This document shows, in pieces, positions 1,730-15,670 of a stretch of 16,024 bases of DNA. Origin of the DNA: a bacterium (GTDB lineage: Bacteria; CSSED10-310; JAJRTK01); contig JAJRTK010000189.1 of the NCBI GenBank assembly GCA_024278345.1, positions 1 to 16,024 of the forward strand, in the 5' to 3' direction. Numbering within the stretch: position 1 is the stretch's first letter; each line of letters begins with the position of its first letter. The notes under the pieces are model-generated. The model saw nothing but the letters and a program-made list of their open reading frames with translations, was not told the origin of the DNA and did no database searches. The position numbers and the translations under genes were made by a program.

Positions 1730-1915
1730 TCAAGAAGATCTCTCCTCCCAGACCACCAAGTGACAAACTTTATTCAGCATCCCCATGATCTGAGGAGATG
1801 CGTAATGAAAGACGGGACGGTGCAACTTGCGGAGGCCCAAGCCTGCCAATACCCGGCGATGCTTCTCCGGTTGCCCAATCGAGCTTCTCACCTGCCGTAT
1901 CACGAGTTTCTTCAT
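1730..1915 (-). CDS. rpmD: 50S ribosomal protein L30
   Basis: L30 is a small 50S protein found only in some bacterial lineages. The 61 residues read [19 protein letters not shown], then [13 protein letters not shown] and a C-terminal [12 protein letters not shown], which match the family pattern (SxIGxPxxxRxxLxGLGLRKxxxxV...IxGMxxKVxHLV). The start is ATG at 1915. A longer in-frame ORF extends five codons upstream but enters the end of rpsE. The preferred ATG overlaps the rpsE TGA as ATGA, the usual coupling arrangement. The position between rpsE and rplO is the canonical spc location. Nothing is odd apart from the 152-bp spacer that follows. Confidence 0.95.
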
Positions 1916-2424
1916 GCTCTCGTATCCCAAATCTCTTCAAGACTCTTGTTACGCAGCCTAGCCACAGCTTTCGGATCAGCCAACGATTTCAAACCTTCAA
2001 AGGCCGCCTTCGCAACATTATGCGGATTGCGACTCCCTATCGACTTCGTCAATATGTTTCTGACACCACAAGTCTCCATGATCGCCCGGACTGGACCACC
2101 AGCAATCACTCCGGTCCCTTCCGAGGCTGGAAGGAGAAGCACATTCCCAGCCCCAAAGCGCCCATTAACACGATGTGGAATCGTCCCCTTGATGAGGTTG
2201 ATTCTGCACAGATTCCGTTTCGCACGCTCAAGCCCTTTTCGTATAGCTTCAGGGACTTCATTCGCCTTACCCAATCCAATTCCCACCGTACCGCGCCCAT
2301 CCCCGGCTACGACTAAAGCGCTAAAGGAAAACCTGCGCCCTCCCTTCACCACCTTCGCCACACGCGAAATGTGAATCACGCGATCCTTGAGTTCGTTGTT
2401 TTCTTTGGACTCATTACGATTCAT
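1912..2424 (-). CDS. rpsE: 30S ribosomal protein S5
   Basis: S5 is a 30S protein of the decoding and mRNA-entry region and affects translational accuracy. The 170 residues contain the N-terminal double-stranded RNA-binding domain ([20 protein letters not shown], then [27 protein letters not shown], about residues 10-60) and the C-terminal domain with [19 protein letters not shown] and the [13 protein letters not shown] helix. I place the start at the ATG at 2424 (MNRNESKEN) because GAGGAG lies six bases upstream. An in-frame TTG at 2442 would place the start within or upstream of that Shine-Dalgarno sequence. The TGA overlaps rpmD by 4 bp. Upstream, 853 bp separate it from rplR, which in most bacteria is almost adjacent. 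That gap holds a hairpin repeat and a miniature transposon. Confidence 0.97.
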
Positions 2425-2492
2425 CCTGCGCTCCTCAAGCAAGCAAGCCGGCTAATTAACCTGCCTACTCATAACCAAATACAACCCGACGG

Positions 2493-2745
2493 CCTCGGTC
2501 ATCGGTGGCGCCTTCGGCAGCTCTCGCTGTCGGTCGGCCCCGGCCACAGTTCAGAATTTCAACCACCCCCAGGCTTCCAGCCCTGGAACCCGGCGGAGGC
2601 AACCTCCGGACCTTCGCCCGGAGCGGCGCTCCCAGACCCACGCCAGGGAGCCAACTCCCCTAGCCCATATCCTTCGCTCCGCGTACTTGTCGAGTGGCCA
2701 GTGCCAACCGAGGAGAGAGTCGGCTCCGCCGACCACCGATGCCCA
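2493..2745. repeat. Hairpin-array repeat, copy in rplR-rpsE spacer
   Basis: This is a chain of short perfect hairpins: GGAGC-ggc-GCTCC (2620-2632), GGGAG-ccaa-CTCCC (2646-2659) and GTCGGC-tcc-GCCGAC (2719-2733). The two ends carry a 9-bp perfect inverted repeat, CATCGGTGG (2500-2508 and 2733-2741). The inner block with CCCTGGAACCCGGCGGAG (2581-2598) recurs almost unchanged in the rpsS-rplB spacer at about 11,481-11,497. The right end, read on the minus strand, matches the left end of that other copy (11,398-11,424) at 23 of 27 positions. It is therefore a dispersed repeat and not unique spacer. No coding capacity and no target duplication are evident, and its boundaries are approximate. Confidence 0.65.
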
Positions 2746-2827
2746 ATCCGACCAGCGATCTAGCCAAAACCACCCCGCCCCTCTGGAACTTTCCACCTAT
2801 GTTTCCATTCAGTCGCCGGACCCCGCA

Positions 2828-3085
2828 GAACCACAGGGTATCCACGCAAGGCGGGACATTCCCGGGACCGTGGAATCGCAAGCGTCCGGGCAACGCCGCG
2901 CTGTTGCTCGGCGGGTCACGCCGCGCGTTACCCGTAGGTCGTCCGGGGATTCCATCCCCCGTCCCCTGGCAGGGCTTCGCCCTGCACCCACCACGGAAGC
3001 ACGCTCCCTGGACCCACGTTTTTGTACGCTACGCGTTTTCCTTTTTTTCTGTTCTGTCCCGCCTTGCGTGGATACCCGAACCACA
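2828..3085. mobile_element. Miniature inverted-repeat transposable element (242 bp) with 8-bp target duplication
   Basis: Bases 2836-2858 (GGGTATCCACGC...GCGGGACA) are the exact reverse complement of 3055-3077, giving 23-bp perfect terminal inverted repeats around 196 bp of interior. Directly outside both ends is the same octamer GAACCACA (2828-2835 and 3078-3085), the footprint of an insertion. The interior cannot encode a transposase. It forms a row of hairpins: GCAAC/GTTGC (2890-2907), CGGGT/ACCCG (2912-2934), GGGGA/TCCCC (2945-2959) and GCAGGGC-ttc-GCCCTGC (2969-2985). Ends starting GGG with 8-bp duplications occur in families such as IS1595 or ISL3, but I cannot assign one from sequence alone. 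The perfect ends and perfect duplication suggest a recent insertion. Confidence 0.85.
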
Positions 3086-3277
3086 TCAAGATTACCAAGC
3101 ACTCCGTTGGGACAAGTTCTTTCGCGAGGTCCAGCCGCACTAAGGTAACACAAGCCCACTGGAGAGTAGCGCTGGCACCGCACCTCGATAGGTGAGTCCC
3201 ACTTCTATCCGCAATAGATGTAACCCGCAACCTCTGGCTCAAATCACGCCAGCCAACCGACCGCCATCGAGCCCTGT

Positions 3278-3649
3278 TCAGAATTGCAGTCCCTGACCCC
3301 GCGCTGCCTCGGCAAGCGCTTTTATCCGGCCATGGTATCGATATCCAGAACGATCAAACACTACCTCTTTGATCCCGGCGGCTACCGCACGCTGGCCGAG
3401 CAATCTCCCTATAGCTTTAGCTCCTTTTACGTTGGCCCCCATAGCCATATCGGGGTCTGACAGCTCACTCTCCCTTGAAGACGCTGCAACAAGTGTCTGA
3501 CCTGTCCCATCATCAATGATCTGCACATAGATATGCATCAGGCTACGGAAAACGCACAATCGCGGACGACTTGACGTTCCTACCACTCTATTGCGTATCC
3601 GCCGATGCCGTCGTTTTCGACCTTCTTGACGACTAACTACCTTTCCCAT
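3278..3649 (-). CDS. rplR: 50S ribosomal protein L18
   Basis: L18 binds 5S rRNA together with L5 and helps place it in the central protuberance. The chosen product is 123 residues: [22 protein letters not shown], then [20 protein letters not shown] (about residues 29-48, the conserved RLxVFRSxxHIYxQIID block), [18 protein letters not shown] and the terminal [28 protein letters not shown], which is diagnostic. The frame stays open for 32 codons upstream, to 3745. The ATG at 3649 gives the family N-terminus and length and has GGAG nearby upstream, so I prefer it. A 175-bp spacer separates it from rplF. Its downstream spacer is the longest internal gap in the window. Confidence 0.96.
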
Positions 3650-3824
3650 CGCTCCAAACTCGCTATTATTCCGTGGATCTATCCCGAGCAGGCCACCTGG
3701 CCCTTCCAAATAAGTTTGGCCTATCCGTTCGTGCGCCAACTCCATTCCCCCCTTAGCCTGCCCGACACCGCTATTTTCAACCTACCTCATCCCTCAATCG
3801 CACTGATACCCGTGATTGACGCAA

Positions 3825-4776: not shown

Positions 4777-5243
4777 TCCCATCATGTTCTCCAAGTATAC
4801 CAGCCAGTAGGCCTCGATCATCGTCTCGGCCACGGCAATGAGTTCTGGCACAGCAGGCCCCCGCTAGAGCCCGGCGGACACGGCCTCCGCCAAGACCGCT
4901 GCATGGTCTGCGGAGATTCCCCGCCCCGCTCCGGTTTCTGAACCTCGCCAGGGAACTCGCTCTCCGGGATTTATAACCTTATTACGCTACCCTTCTTTTT
5001 CGGAGGGCGGGCAAAAAACGATGACCGGTGCCTATTGTGGGTCTAAATTGCCATGCAAACCTACCTCACTGGGTTCCCCGAACGCCAACCTGTTTGCCGA
5101 TTCCAGCGAGTCTTCAGCCCACCTTTCCCCAGAAAATCCCAGCCGTCGAAAACGAGGCAAACCGCGAAGTGCAGCCTAGGTCAATGGAAAAATAACAAAG
5201 CCTCGACAAGGACTGCGCCCCTCCAAGCATCGATAGCGAAATT
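4777..5243. other. 467-bp non-coding spacer between rpsN and rpsH
   Basis: No gene is supported here. The left third (4843-4967) is a hairpin-array repeat. The remainder (about 4970-5243) has no recognisable coding sequence, promoter pair or terminator. A purine/pyrimidine-skewed patch near 4990-5020 (CTTTTTCGGAGGGCGGGC then six A) does not fold into a convincing terminator. In most bacteria rpsN and rpsH are nearly adjacent, so the size is itself unusual. Confidence 0.75.
4843..4967. repeat. Hairpin-array repeat, copy in rpsN-rpsH spacer
   Basis: Successive small hairpins are visible: GGCGGA/TCCGCC (4873-4878 with 4886-4891) and AGACC/GGTCT (4893-4897 with 4905-4909). The latter is nested with an alternative CCGC/GCGG pairing. 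It shares blocks with two other copies. GCCCGGCGGA resembles the ACCCGGCGGA block of both. GCTCCGGTTTCTGAACC resembles GCTCCGGTTCCGGCACC at 11,540-11,556. CGCCAGGGAACTCGCTCTCC resembles CGCCAGGGAGCCAACTCCC at 2641-2659. It therefore links the 2493-2745 and 11,391-11,585 copies into one family. Its boundaries are approximate and it encodes nothing. Confidence 0.55.
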
Positions 5244-5988: not shown

Positions 5989-6415
5989 CACCTTTAGCAC
6001 AACCACCTCTCGGAAATAACCCGACGCCGTAGACCCGGATATCTCATCAAGGATCGTCGCGAGGAAGTCTGAGGCGCGGCTCCACAAAGGGGGGAAAGGC
6101 GGACACCGGAGGCGTAGTCATGCACTACGTCGAGGATGTCCGACCGACGAAGACGCCGGTGGAGACGATGGTTCAGACGCCGCAGCAGATTTTTGATGAG
6201 ATATTCGGGGTAGAGAACGCGTTTTGTTTACATGCCCCCACAAGCAACAATAAATCACAAGAACGACGACTTCCCCCCATTTTCCGACACCAAACGCCCC
6301 TCAGCTAGTGGCTCGTTCGGCGACACAATCCATAATCCAGTCGGGTTTTCTGGCCGAAATCGGCCTGAAATCGAAAATTCGCGGTCGAACATAACACAAC
6401 TAGCCACACGACCCA
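5989..6415. other. 427-bp non-coding spacer between rplX and rplE
   Basis: No gene is supported. A 176-bp inverted-repeat element (6034-6209) occupies the left part. The rest (6215-6415) contains a compact hairpin, GGCCG-aaat-CGGCC, at about 6352-6365. It also contains a longer imperfect inverted repeat, CTAGTGGCTCG (6305-6315) with CGACCCACTAG (6409-6419), whose right arm covers the TAG stop of rplX. No run of T follows either structure on the transcribed strand, so I do not call a terminator. Confidence 0.7.
6029..6214. mobile_element. Miniature inverted-repeat element (176 bp) with 5-bp target duplication
   Basis: Bases 6034-6055 and 6188-6209 are inverted repeats matching at 19 of 22 positions. 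Read inward, the left end is CCCGGATATCTCATCA... and the right end is CCCGAATATCTCATCA.... The pentamer GTAGA lies immediately outside both ends (6029-6033 and 6210-6214), consistent with a target-site duplication. The interior has no transposase. It folds into a long hairpin centred on CGTAGT-catgc-ACTACG (6113-6129), which can extend outward to GGACA/TGTCC (6101-6105 with 6137-6141). The family is not assigned. The mismatched ends suggest an older insertion than the one at 2836-3077. Removing the element and one GTAGA would shorten the rplX-rplE gap from 427 to 246 bp. Confidence 0.7.
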
Positions 6416-11221: not shown

Positions 11222-11762
11222 TCCTTTTCACCTCCATACTACCGCCGTATTTTCGCACCAGCGCCCCACCATGGACCCGCAAGCACACTGCTGTTATCCG
11301 GATTCGGCGCAAAGCCCAGGCCCCGGCTCGTTTAGCCAACCGCATGAGCGTTCTTGACGAAAAACCACCGCCCTCATATCCATTTTTGAGCCTCGGTCAT
11401 GTTTGGTCGGCAGAGCCGACTCTCGCCGCGCCGGTCTACAACCACAGCGAGGGATTCCAAGTGCAGCCCCAGGGCCTCCGGCCCTGAACCCGGCGGAGAC
11501 CCCGGCTATCGCCGCAGCGATGTTCTCCGCTGTGCCTAAGCTCCGGTTCCGGCACCTTTCCTGGGAGCCCTGCTCCCAGGGAACCCGTTGCTTTTCATTG
11601 CAACCGGTCATCAAATCGCCATGAAACTCGCTCCCTGAACCCAATTCACTGTGCGTCGCACTTCTTTTAGAGTGGAAAAAATGACCACTACCCAGTTTTG
11701 CAGCATTGCGCACATGTTTGGCCGCATGAAAGGACAGCCACGGAAGCCGGCCAAGCAACTAC
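11222..11762. other. 541-bp non-coding spacer between rplB and rpsS
   Basis: The centre (11,391-11,585) is a hairpin-array repeat. The flanks (11,222-11,390 and 11,586-11,762) contain no supported gene. A minus-strand frame through 11,611-11,859 overlaps the end of rplB and lacks family motifs. No promoter pair or terminator was found. Confidence 0.7.
11391..11585. repeat. Hairpin-array repeat, copy in rplB-rpsS spacer
   Basis: This is the clearest copy of the family. Perfect hairpins: GTCGGC-aga-GCCGAC (11,406-11,420), AGGGCC-tcc-GGCCCT (11,471-11,485) and CCTGGGAGC-cct-GCTCCCAGG (11,560-11,580). Loops are consistently three bases. Bases 11,398-11,424 match the reverse complement of 2715-2741 at 23 of 27 positions. 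The block CCCTGAACCCGGCGGAG matches 2581-2598 apart from one inserted base. GCTCCGGTTCCGG matches the copy at 4843-4967. No T-run follows any hairpin. Such arrays probably form strong structure in the operon mRNA and could stabilise, attenuate or process it; this is an inference. Confidence 0.65.
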
Positions 11763-15043: not shown

Positions 15044-15670
15044 CTCCTCTAAAAGTTGATCCTGTTTTGCTCATTCCTCCACATCTCGAAACCGGCTGGC
15101 GGAACGCTTCAAGGGTATGATGATTGTCGAGGGCTTTGCTCTCTTGGAGTTGCGGTCCGCTCGCGGCGGCGGCAATCCGCCCGCCGCCACTCGCCTTTCA
15201 TCGCCCCGAAACCATGCCCAGAGCCATCAAGACGTGCCCCGACCCGAAAGCCAGCCAAGCGGAACTGACGGATGACAGCGGAAAAAGAATCTGACCAAAA
15301 TTCGTCACTTCTCAATAAAGCCGGGTGTGAAGAGTGTAGCGAGTCGAGTTCGTGAAGTGCTCGGGCGGAGATTTGGAAACGTGGCGGATGCGCTTCGAGT
15401 AGAGCTGGACGTGGAGTCCTTCACCGCCACCGAGTTTGTGGTCGGGCGGCGATGAGGAATTGATCCCCCCGGGGAGCCAAGAAAGAGGCCGAAATCATCG
15501 CAATCTTGGAGGCGCCAGTTTGTCGGGGAGCTTCAGAACAGGCAACCGATGGAAACAGTGACCATCTGCTGCAACGAGAAGCCTCGTCTTCCCTTTTTCG
15601 AGTCTGTGGGTACACGAGAGGATGGAAGATTGGCGCAGAGGAAGAGAGCGTAAAGGGGGGCGGACGGCGG

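Follow-up and report, generated by a model that had tools for sequence, protein, structure and literature searches.

Few parts of bacterial genomes are as conserved and as tightly packed as ribosomal-protein operons, in which spacers are usually a few bases long. In the 16,024-nucleotide stretch of DNA analysed here (the window), the spacer between rplR, which ends at 3278, and rpsE, which starts near 2424, is 853 bp and holds a 242-bp element with perfect inverted ends. The question raised by this locus is what the element is, how it could have come to lie there, and how the operon accommodates it.

The element and its insertion site

The element occupies window positions 2836-3077 and is non-coding. 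Its 23-bp terminal repeats, which the original prediction had described as perfect, are complementary at 23/23 positions and are the sole inverted repeat reported in 2600-3300. They are flanked on both sides by a perfect 8-bp direct repeat, also as claimed, and the 242 bp contain no transposase ORF, in agreement with the earlier reading of the interior. Short (less than ~600 bp), non-coding and bounded by terminal inverted repeats, the element has the make-up of a MITE. A search of window positions 2300-3400 with Rfam covariance models returned nothing at E values up to 1. The features of the element and of its two flanking genes are as follows.

1912..2424, minus strand: rpsE (30S ribosomal protein S5), intact, the gene downstream of the insertion (TIGR01021, 214.8 bits)
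2828..2835, no strand: left copy of the 8-bp target-site duplication (TSD), GAACCACA (from the sequence and the TSD statistics of the family)
2836..2858, plus strand: left terminal inverted repeat (TIR), GGGTATCCACGCAAGGCGGGACA (matched 413 times in the genome with up to 3 mismatches)
2859..3054, plus strand: non-coding interior with a subterminal module, four hairpins (the fourth decayed) and then a T-rich right arm (from sequence, folding and copy alignment)
2962..3039, plus strand: 78-bp hairpin/T-run module, also present in family B repeats and elsewhere the landing site of group II introns
3055..3077, minus strand: right TIR, the perfect complement of the left (from the sequence)
3078..3085, no strand: right copy of the 8-bp TSD, GAACCACA (from the sequence)
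3278..3655, minus strand: rplR (50S ribosomal protein L18), intact, start codon not fixed, the gene upstream of the insertion (TIGR00060, 130.5 bits)

The scores of the rplR and rpsE products against these NCBIfam models indicate that neither gene is damaged. The two genes almost abut in the four genomes of the same phylum that gave a hit, and the insertion is therefore as unusual as was originally proposed for a place normally almost without a spacer. Across 84 loci (80 named genomes and the four of the same phylum), 26-354 bp separate the rplR stop from the point where conservation in rpsE begins, a range that includes the rpsE N-terminus so that the real spacers are shorter; a similar measure gives 875 bp here. 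Consensus scans of the element revealed neither terminator-like nor promoter-like sites on either strand. Given the absence of such sites and the intact genes on either side, read-through is the likeliest outcome, and the operon mRNA is probably read through the element as a structured spacer. Tolerance of the element between rplR and rpsE would then follow from the integrity of both reading frames and the lack of a predicted terminator in the direction of transcription.

A high-copy family with 8- or 9-bp duplications

The genome is a 6.06-Mb draft in 550 contigs and is 88% complete. When up to 3 mismatches are allowed, it contains 413 matches to the 23-mer end, of which 196 are forward and 217 reverse, whereas the reversed pattern, used as a control in the same genome at the same threshold, gives 0; the end is thus clearly multi-copy. 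Unselected contigs contain 24 ends (up to 5 mismatches) in 309 kb. The best full-length matches to the element are 95% identical over 242 bp. No match to the family was found in 59 other genomes, 7 of them from the same phylum, and no similarity was seen in phages or plasmids. An 18-mer core of the end does occur in two viral contigs, and we regard this as an unrelated match.

Copies were examined in a 1.1-Mb sample of fetched contigs, which is enriched for them and contains 43 complete pairs of ends; of the single ends, 43 are close to a contig end and 39 are internal. Extrapolated from these counts, the genome holds roughly 200-350 elements. With a duplication called when at least 7/8 or at least 8/9 positions match, 8- or 9-bp TSDs are present in 29 of the 45 two-ended copies in which both flanks are readable (8 bp at 21 sites and 9 bp at the other 8, with one mismatch allowed); 2000 shuffles of the flank partners gave 0.7 on average and never more than 5.

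Empty sites were sought by joining the flanks of TSD-bearing copies and looking for uninterrupted relatives. The clearest case is paralogous: the copy at L168:16807-17086 lies within a dispersed 'GGCGGCGGACGG...' repeat. Other copies of this repeat, such as that in L177, are intact, being uninterrupted at the same junction and carrying a single GCGGAACG. Candidate empty sites for L180 and L190 point in the same direction and are less clean, with patchy homology across the junction.

The fragmentation of the assembly bears on a further explanation, that the locus is an assembly or binning artefact in which contigs were mis-joined at a high-copy repeat. The assembler evidently struggles with this family, since 43 of the 82 unpaired ends sampled are close to where a contig stops. 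A mis-join would not, however, leave rplR and rpsE in conserved order and strand with the same 8-mer on both sides, and we consider an artefact most improbable. The dispersed copies, the ends that act as their boundaries in a 34-copy alignment, the TSDs at many independent sites and the paralogous empty site of the L168 copy all support the miniature transposon reading of the original prediction; rather than a single-copy sequence with indistinct limits, there are hundreds of copies with defined ends. We are thus highly confident that the element belongs to a high-copy MITE family of non-autonomous DNA transposons. The proposal that the window copy moved recently fares less well: despite perfect ends and a perfect TSD, it shares 95% identity with the nearest other copies found and one of its hairpins is decayed, and its mobility is at best moderately recent.

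Mosaic interiors and neighbouring repeats

The four successive hairpins originally proposed are a fair description of the family; the window copy has three good ones (2913-2933, 2945-2959 and 2969-2985), and the fourth (2991-3011), which has the family form CCAGGGAGCGCGCTCCCTGG, is decayed. Interiors are mosaic, with 24 module combinations in the 34 aligned copies. These are built from three left arms and three main right arms, a GGGTCACG hairpin that is optional or doubled, a GGGGA...TCCCC hairpin in several variants, and a fourth hairpin in three forms. Mean pairwise identity is 0.956 for the left TIR, 0.895 for the right TIR, 0.731 for the subterminal region and 0.824 for the interior; conservation of the left ends (0.956) above that of the neighbouring 32 bases (0.731) is expected if a transposase selects the ends. 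One hairpin is seen as GGGGATTCCATCCCC, GGGGACTCCGTCCCC and GGGGCCTCCGGCCCC. Since other hairpins break pairing and compensatory change was judged by eye only, we claim no selection on these structures. At L103:1-340, tandem GGGTCACGTTTGCGTGACTCGAA hairpin units occur in one MITE, which suggests slippage or unequal recombination of modules.

The element folds strongly, with z-scores of -7.1 as DNA and -6.0 as RNA. This property, together with insertion inside an essential operon and the precedents for MITE-borne RNase III processing (reviewed in PMC10969869), would suit a domesticated regulatory or structural repeat with a function in the ribosomal operon (an attenuator, an mRNA processing element or an RNase III site) rather than a selfish insertion. 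The folding strength nevertheless appears to come largely from the perfect TIR stem, the family lies at hundreds of unrelated sites, the fourth hairpin is decayed in the very copy that occupies the operon, and relatives have no such spacer; a domesticated function is thus very unlikely.

Returning to the element as a mobile MITE, it is not the only repeat in this operon. The others are listed here.

2492..2715, plus strand: decayed MITE-like copy of family B (GGCCTCGGTCAT ends) in the same rplR-rpsE spacer, boundaries approximate
6034-6209: intact MITE from a different family (CCCGGATNTCTCATCAA... ends), lying in the spacer between rplE and rplX; its TSD, GTAGA, is at 6029-6033 and 6210-6214
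4806-5023, 11383-11668 and 15075-15286: further dispersed repeats in operon spacers or flank

Some of the dispersed repeats (2492-2715, 4806-5023, 11383-11668 and 15075-15286) are present in dozens of contigs, and the reversed window, used as a control, gave no matches. With up to 6 mismatches allowed, the end of the CCCGGATNTCTCATCAA-ended family is matched 110 times in the 1.1-Mb sample, and 9 of 15 sampled pairs of this family have a perfect 5-bp duplication. Family B has GGCCTCGGTCATGGTACCGGCCAC ends and perfect 8- or 9-bp duplications in 7 of 13 pairs. One family B element, at L060:335-535, lies inside an ISL3 transposase gene with the 9-bp duplication GTTCAAGCG, and so even IS genes are broken by MITEs here. 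A fourth miniature family, whose members are ~152 bp long and have GGGACCTATCAAATCC ends, is found at L075:137-288, L090:3652-3803, L104:4604-4755 and other places; it apparently makes 8-bp duplications (for example ATTCAGGT) and is sometimes nested in a MITE with the 23-bp end (L108). MITEs and MITE-like repeats thus fill several spacers of the operon as well as its upstream flank, with the genes at the site of the element intact, and the locus shows how much structured non-coding DNA a ribosomal-protein operon can absorb.

The 78-bp stretch at 2962-3039 recurs in family B without the 23-bp TIR. Group II introns in L063, L085, L091, L117, L174 and L188 occupy one fixed place in this hairpin module, with ...GCTCCCTGGAC on one side and CCACATTTTTGTG on the other, and do so in MITEs whose ends differ. 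The intron in L091 matches Rfam RF00029, and their position resembles the hairpin/terminator targeting of class C introns. It is conceivable, although we think it doubtful, that the hairpin array is an exchangeable module that moves between MITE families with unrelated ends and is kept because it is functional; it may, for example, form a single-strand or RNA structure recognised by host or parasite machinery, group II introns included. If so, MITE families would be a recombining community and not separate deletion derivatives of different ISs. The family is a good natural system for studying how recombination yields MITEs that share a hairpin module yet differ in their ends, and what draws group II introns to that module.

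Candidate transposases and relation to known elements

Copies of the family would have been mobilised in trans by a DDE transposase, of cut-and-paste or copy-out type, with the 23-bp end as its recognition site. The matching full-length element that the genome had been expected to hold was found neither among the sampled TIR pairs nor beside transposase remnants. Pairs of TIRs up to 3.5 kb apart in the 1.1 Mb of fetched contigs include no autonomous partner; they span 99-381 bp, apart from one of 673 bp that encloses a nested repeat. Transposase genes in this genome are represented only by fragments of ISL3-, ISKra4-, ISAs1- (DDE_Tnp_1), IS1- and IS1595-like types, none of which is bounded by the 23-bp end. 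A protein search for ISMich2-like transposases likewise gave nothing with this end, and IS256 is absent. Several of the fragments begin at contig ends, as is expected when multi-copy ISs break an assembly. Because the assembly lacks ~12% of the genome and its contigs are broken at IS copies, the absence of a helper is weak evidence.

The ends and duplications offer some guidance. Members of p-MULT (prokaryotic Mutator-like elements, including ISKra4) have inverted repeats of 18-39 bp with a conserved terminal cytosine, and direct repeats of 8 or 9 bp (PMC3942029). The MITE agrees with group p-MULT 4 in its 23-bp end (...ACCC/GGGT...) and in its duplications (21 and 8 sites of 8 and 9 bp), but no transposase-encoding element with common ends was found, the degraded ISKra4-like genes having no 23-bp end. 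ISKra4 relatives recovered from 386 genomes begin GGGTGTG, GGGTGCATC or, within the same phylum, GGGTGTCC, and three of them have 8-10-bp duplications. From these sequence features we lean slightly towards mobilisation by a Mutator/ISKra4-type transposase. The most likely enzyme would be of the p-MULT 4, ISKra4 type, its gene having been lost, degraded or left out of the fragmented assembly. Four to seven like bases at GGGT, together with the TSD length, are thin evidence, partly common to other families (IS1, 8-9 bp), and we refrain from classing the element with ISKra4 derivatives.

The MITE could instead be moved by, or be a deletion derivative of, an IS with a non-Mutator transposase, for example of the IS1, IS1595 or ISL3 type. 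Gene remnants like those of IS1, IS1595, ISL3 and ISAs1 are present in the genome, and several of these families likewise leave duplications of 8 or 8-9 bp. Their remnants nonetheless lack the 23-bp end, the apparent ends being ...GAAGAGCC for the ISL3 remnant and GGCTCTATATGCG for an IS1595 copy, and the 9-bp duplications are not readily explained by families that make a fixed 8 bp. A non-Mutator origin is thus possible but rather unlikely. The same IS1595 end is also found inserted within a MITE in L094.

Among known systems, ISKra4, ISMich2 and ISAzba1 (p-MULT 4; PMC3942029) resemble the MITE in having ends of 18-39 bp that start with G and end with C, and 8- or 9-bp duplications. The full-length ISKra4-family elements recovered here start GGGTG, like the GGGT of the MITE; ISKra4, ISMich2 and ISAzba1 encode a transposase and exceed 1.2 kb, whereas the MITE encodes nothing and its end is alike in the first few bases only. 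The TIMEs, Tn3-derived inverted-repeat miniature elements, are reported to generate mosaic non-autonomous transposons (PMC4133298). They differ from the MITE here, with its 8/9-bp duplications and unrelated ends. TIMEs have Tn3 ends and 5-bp duplications.

Correia elements of Neisseria and ERIC elements of Enterobacteriaceae are, like this family, high-copy, intergenic, hairpin-forming bacterial MITEs. Both duplicate TA, and they differ from the MITE here in ends, target duplication, sequence and hosts. ERIC reaches 711 copies in Photorhabdus (PMC10969869). The Chunjie MITE of Geobacter uraniireducens (Chen et al. 2008, cited in PMC10969869) is 178-235 bp long with dozens of copies, and is alike in size, in its conserved TIRs and direct repeats, in its many partial copies and in having one copy in an operon. 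Compared by description, the family reported here differs in its far greater number of copies, its exchangeable hairpin modules and its presence in a ribosomal-protein operon. It is thus a new family of a known kind, set apart by its load, its mosaic build and its site.
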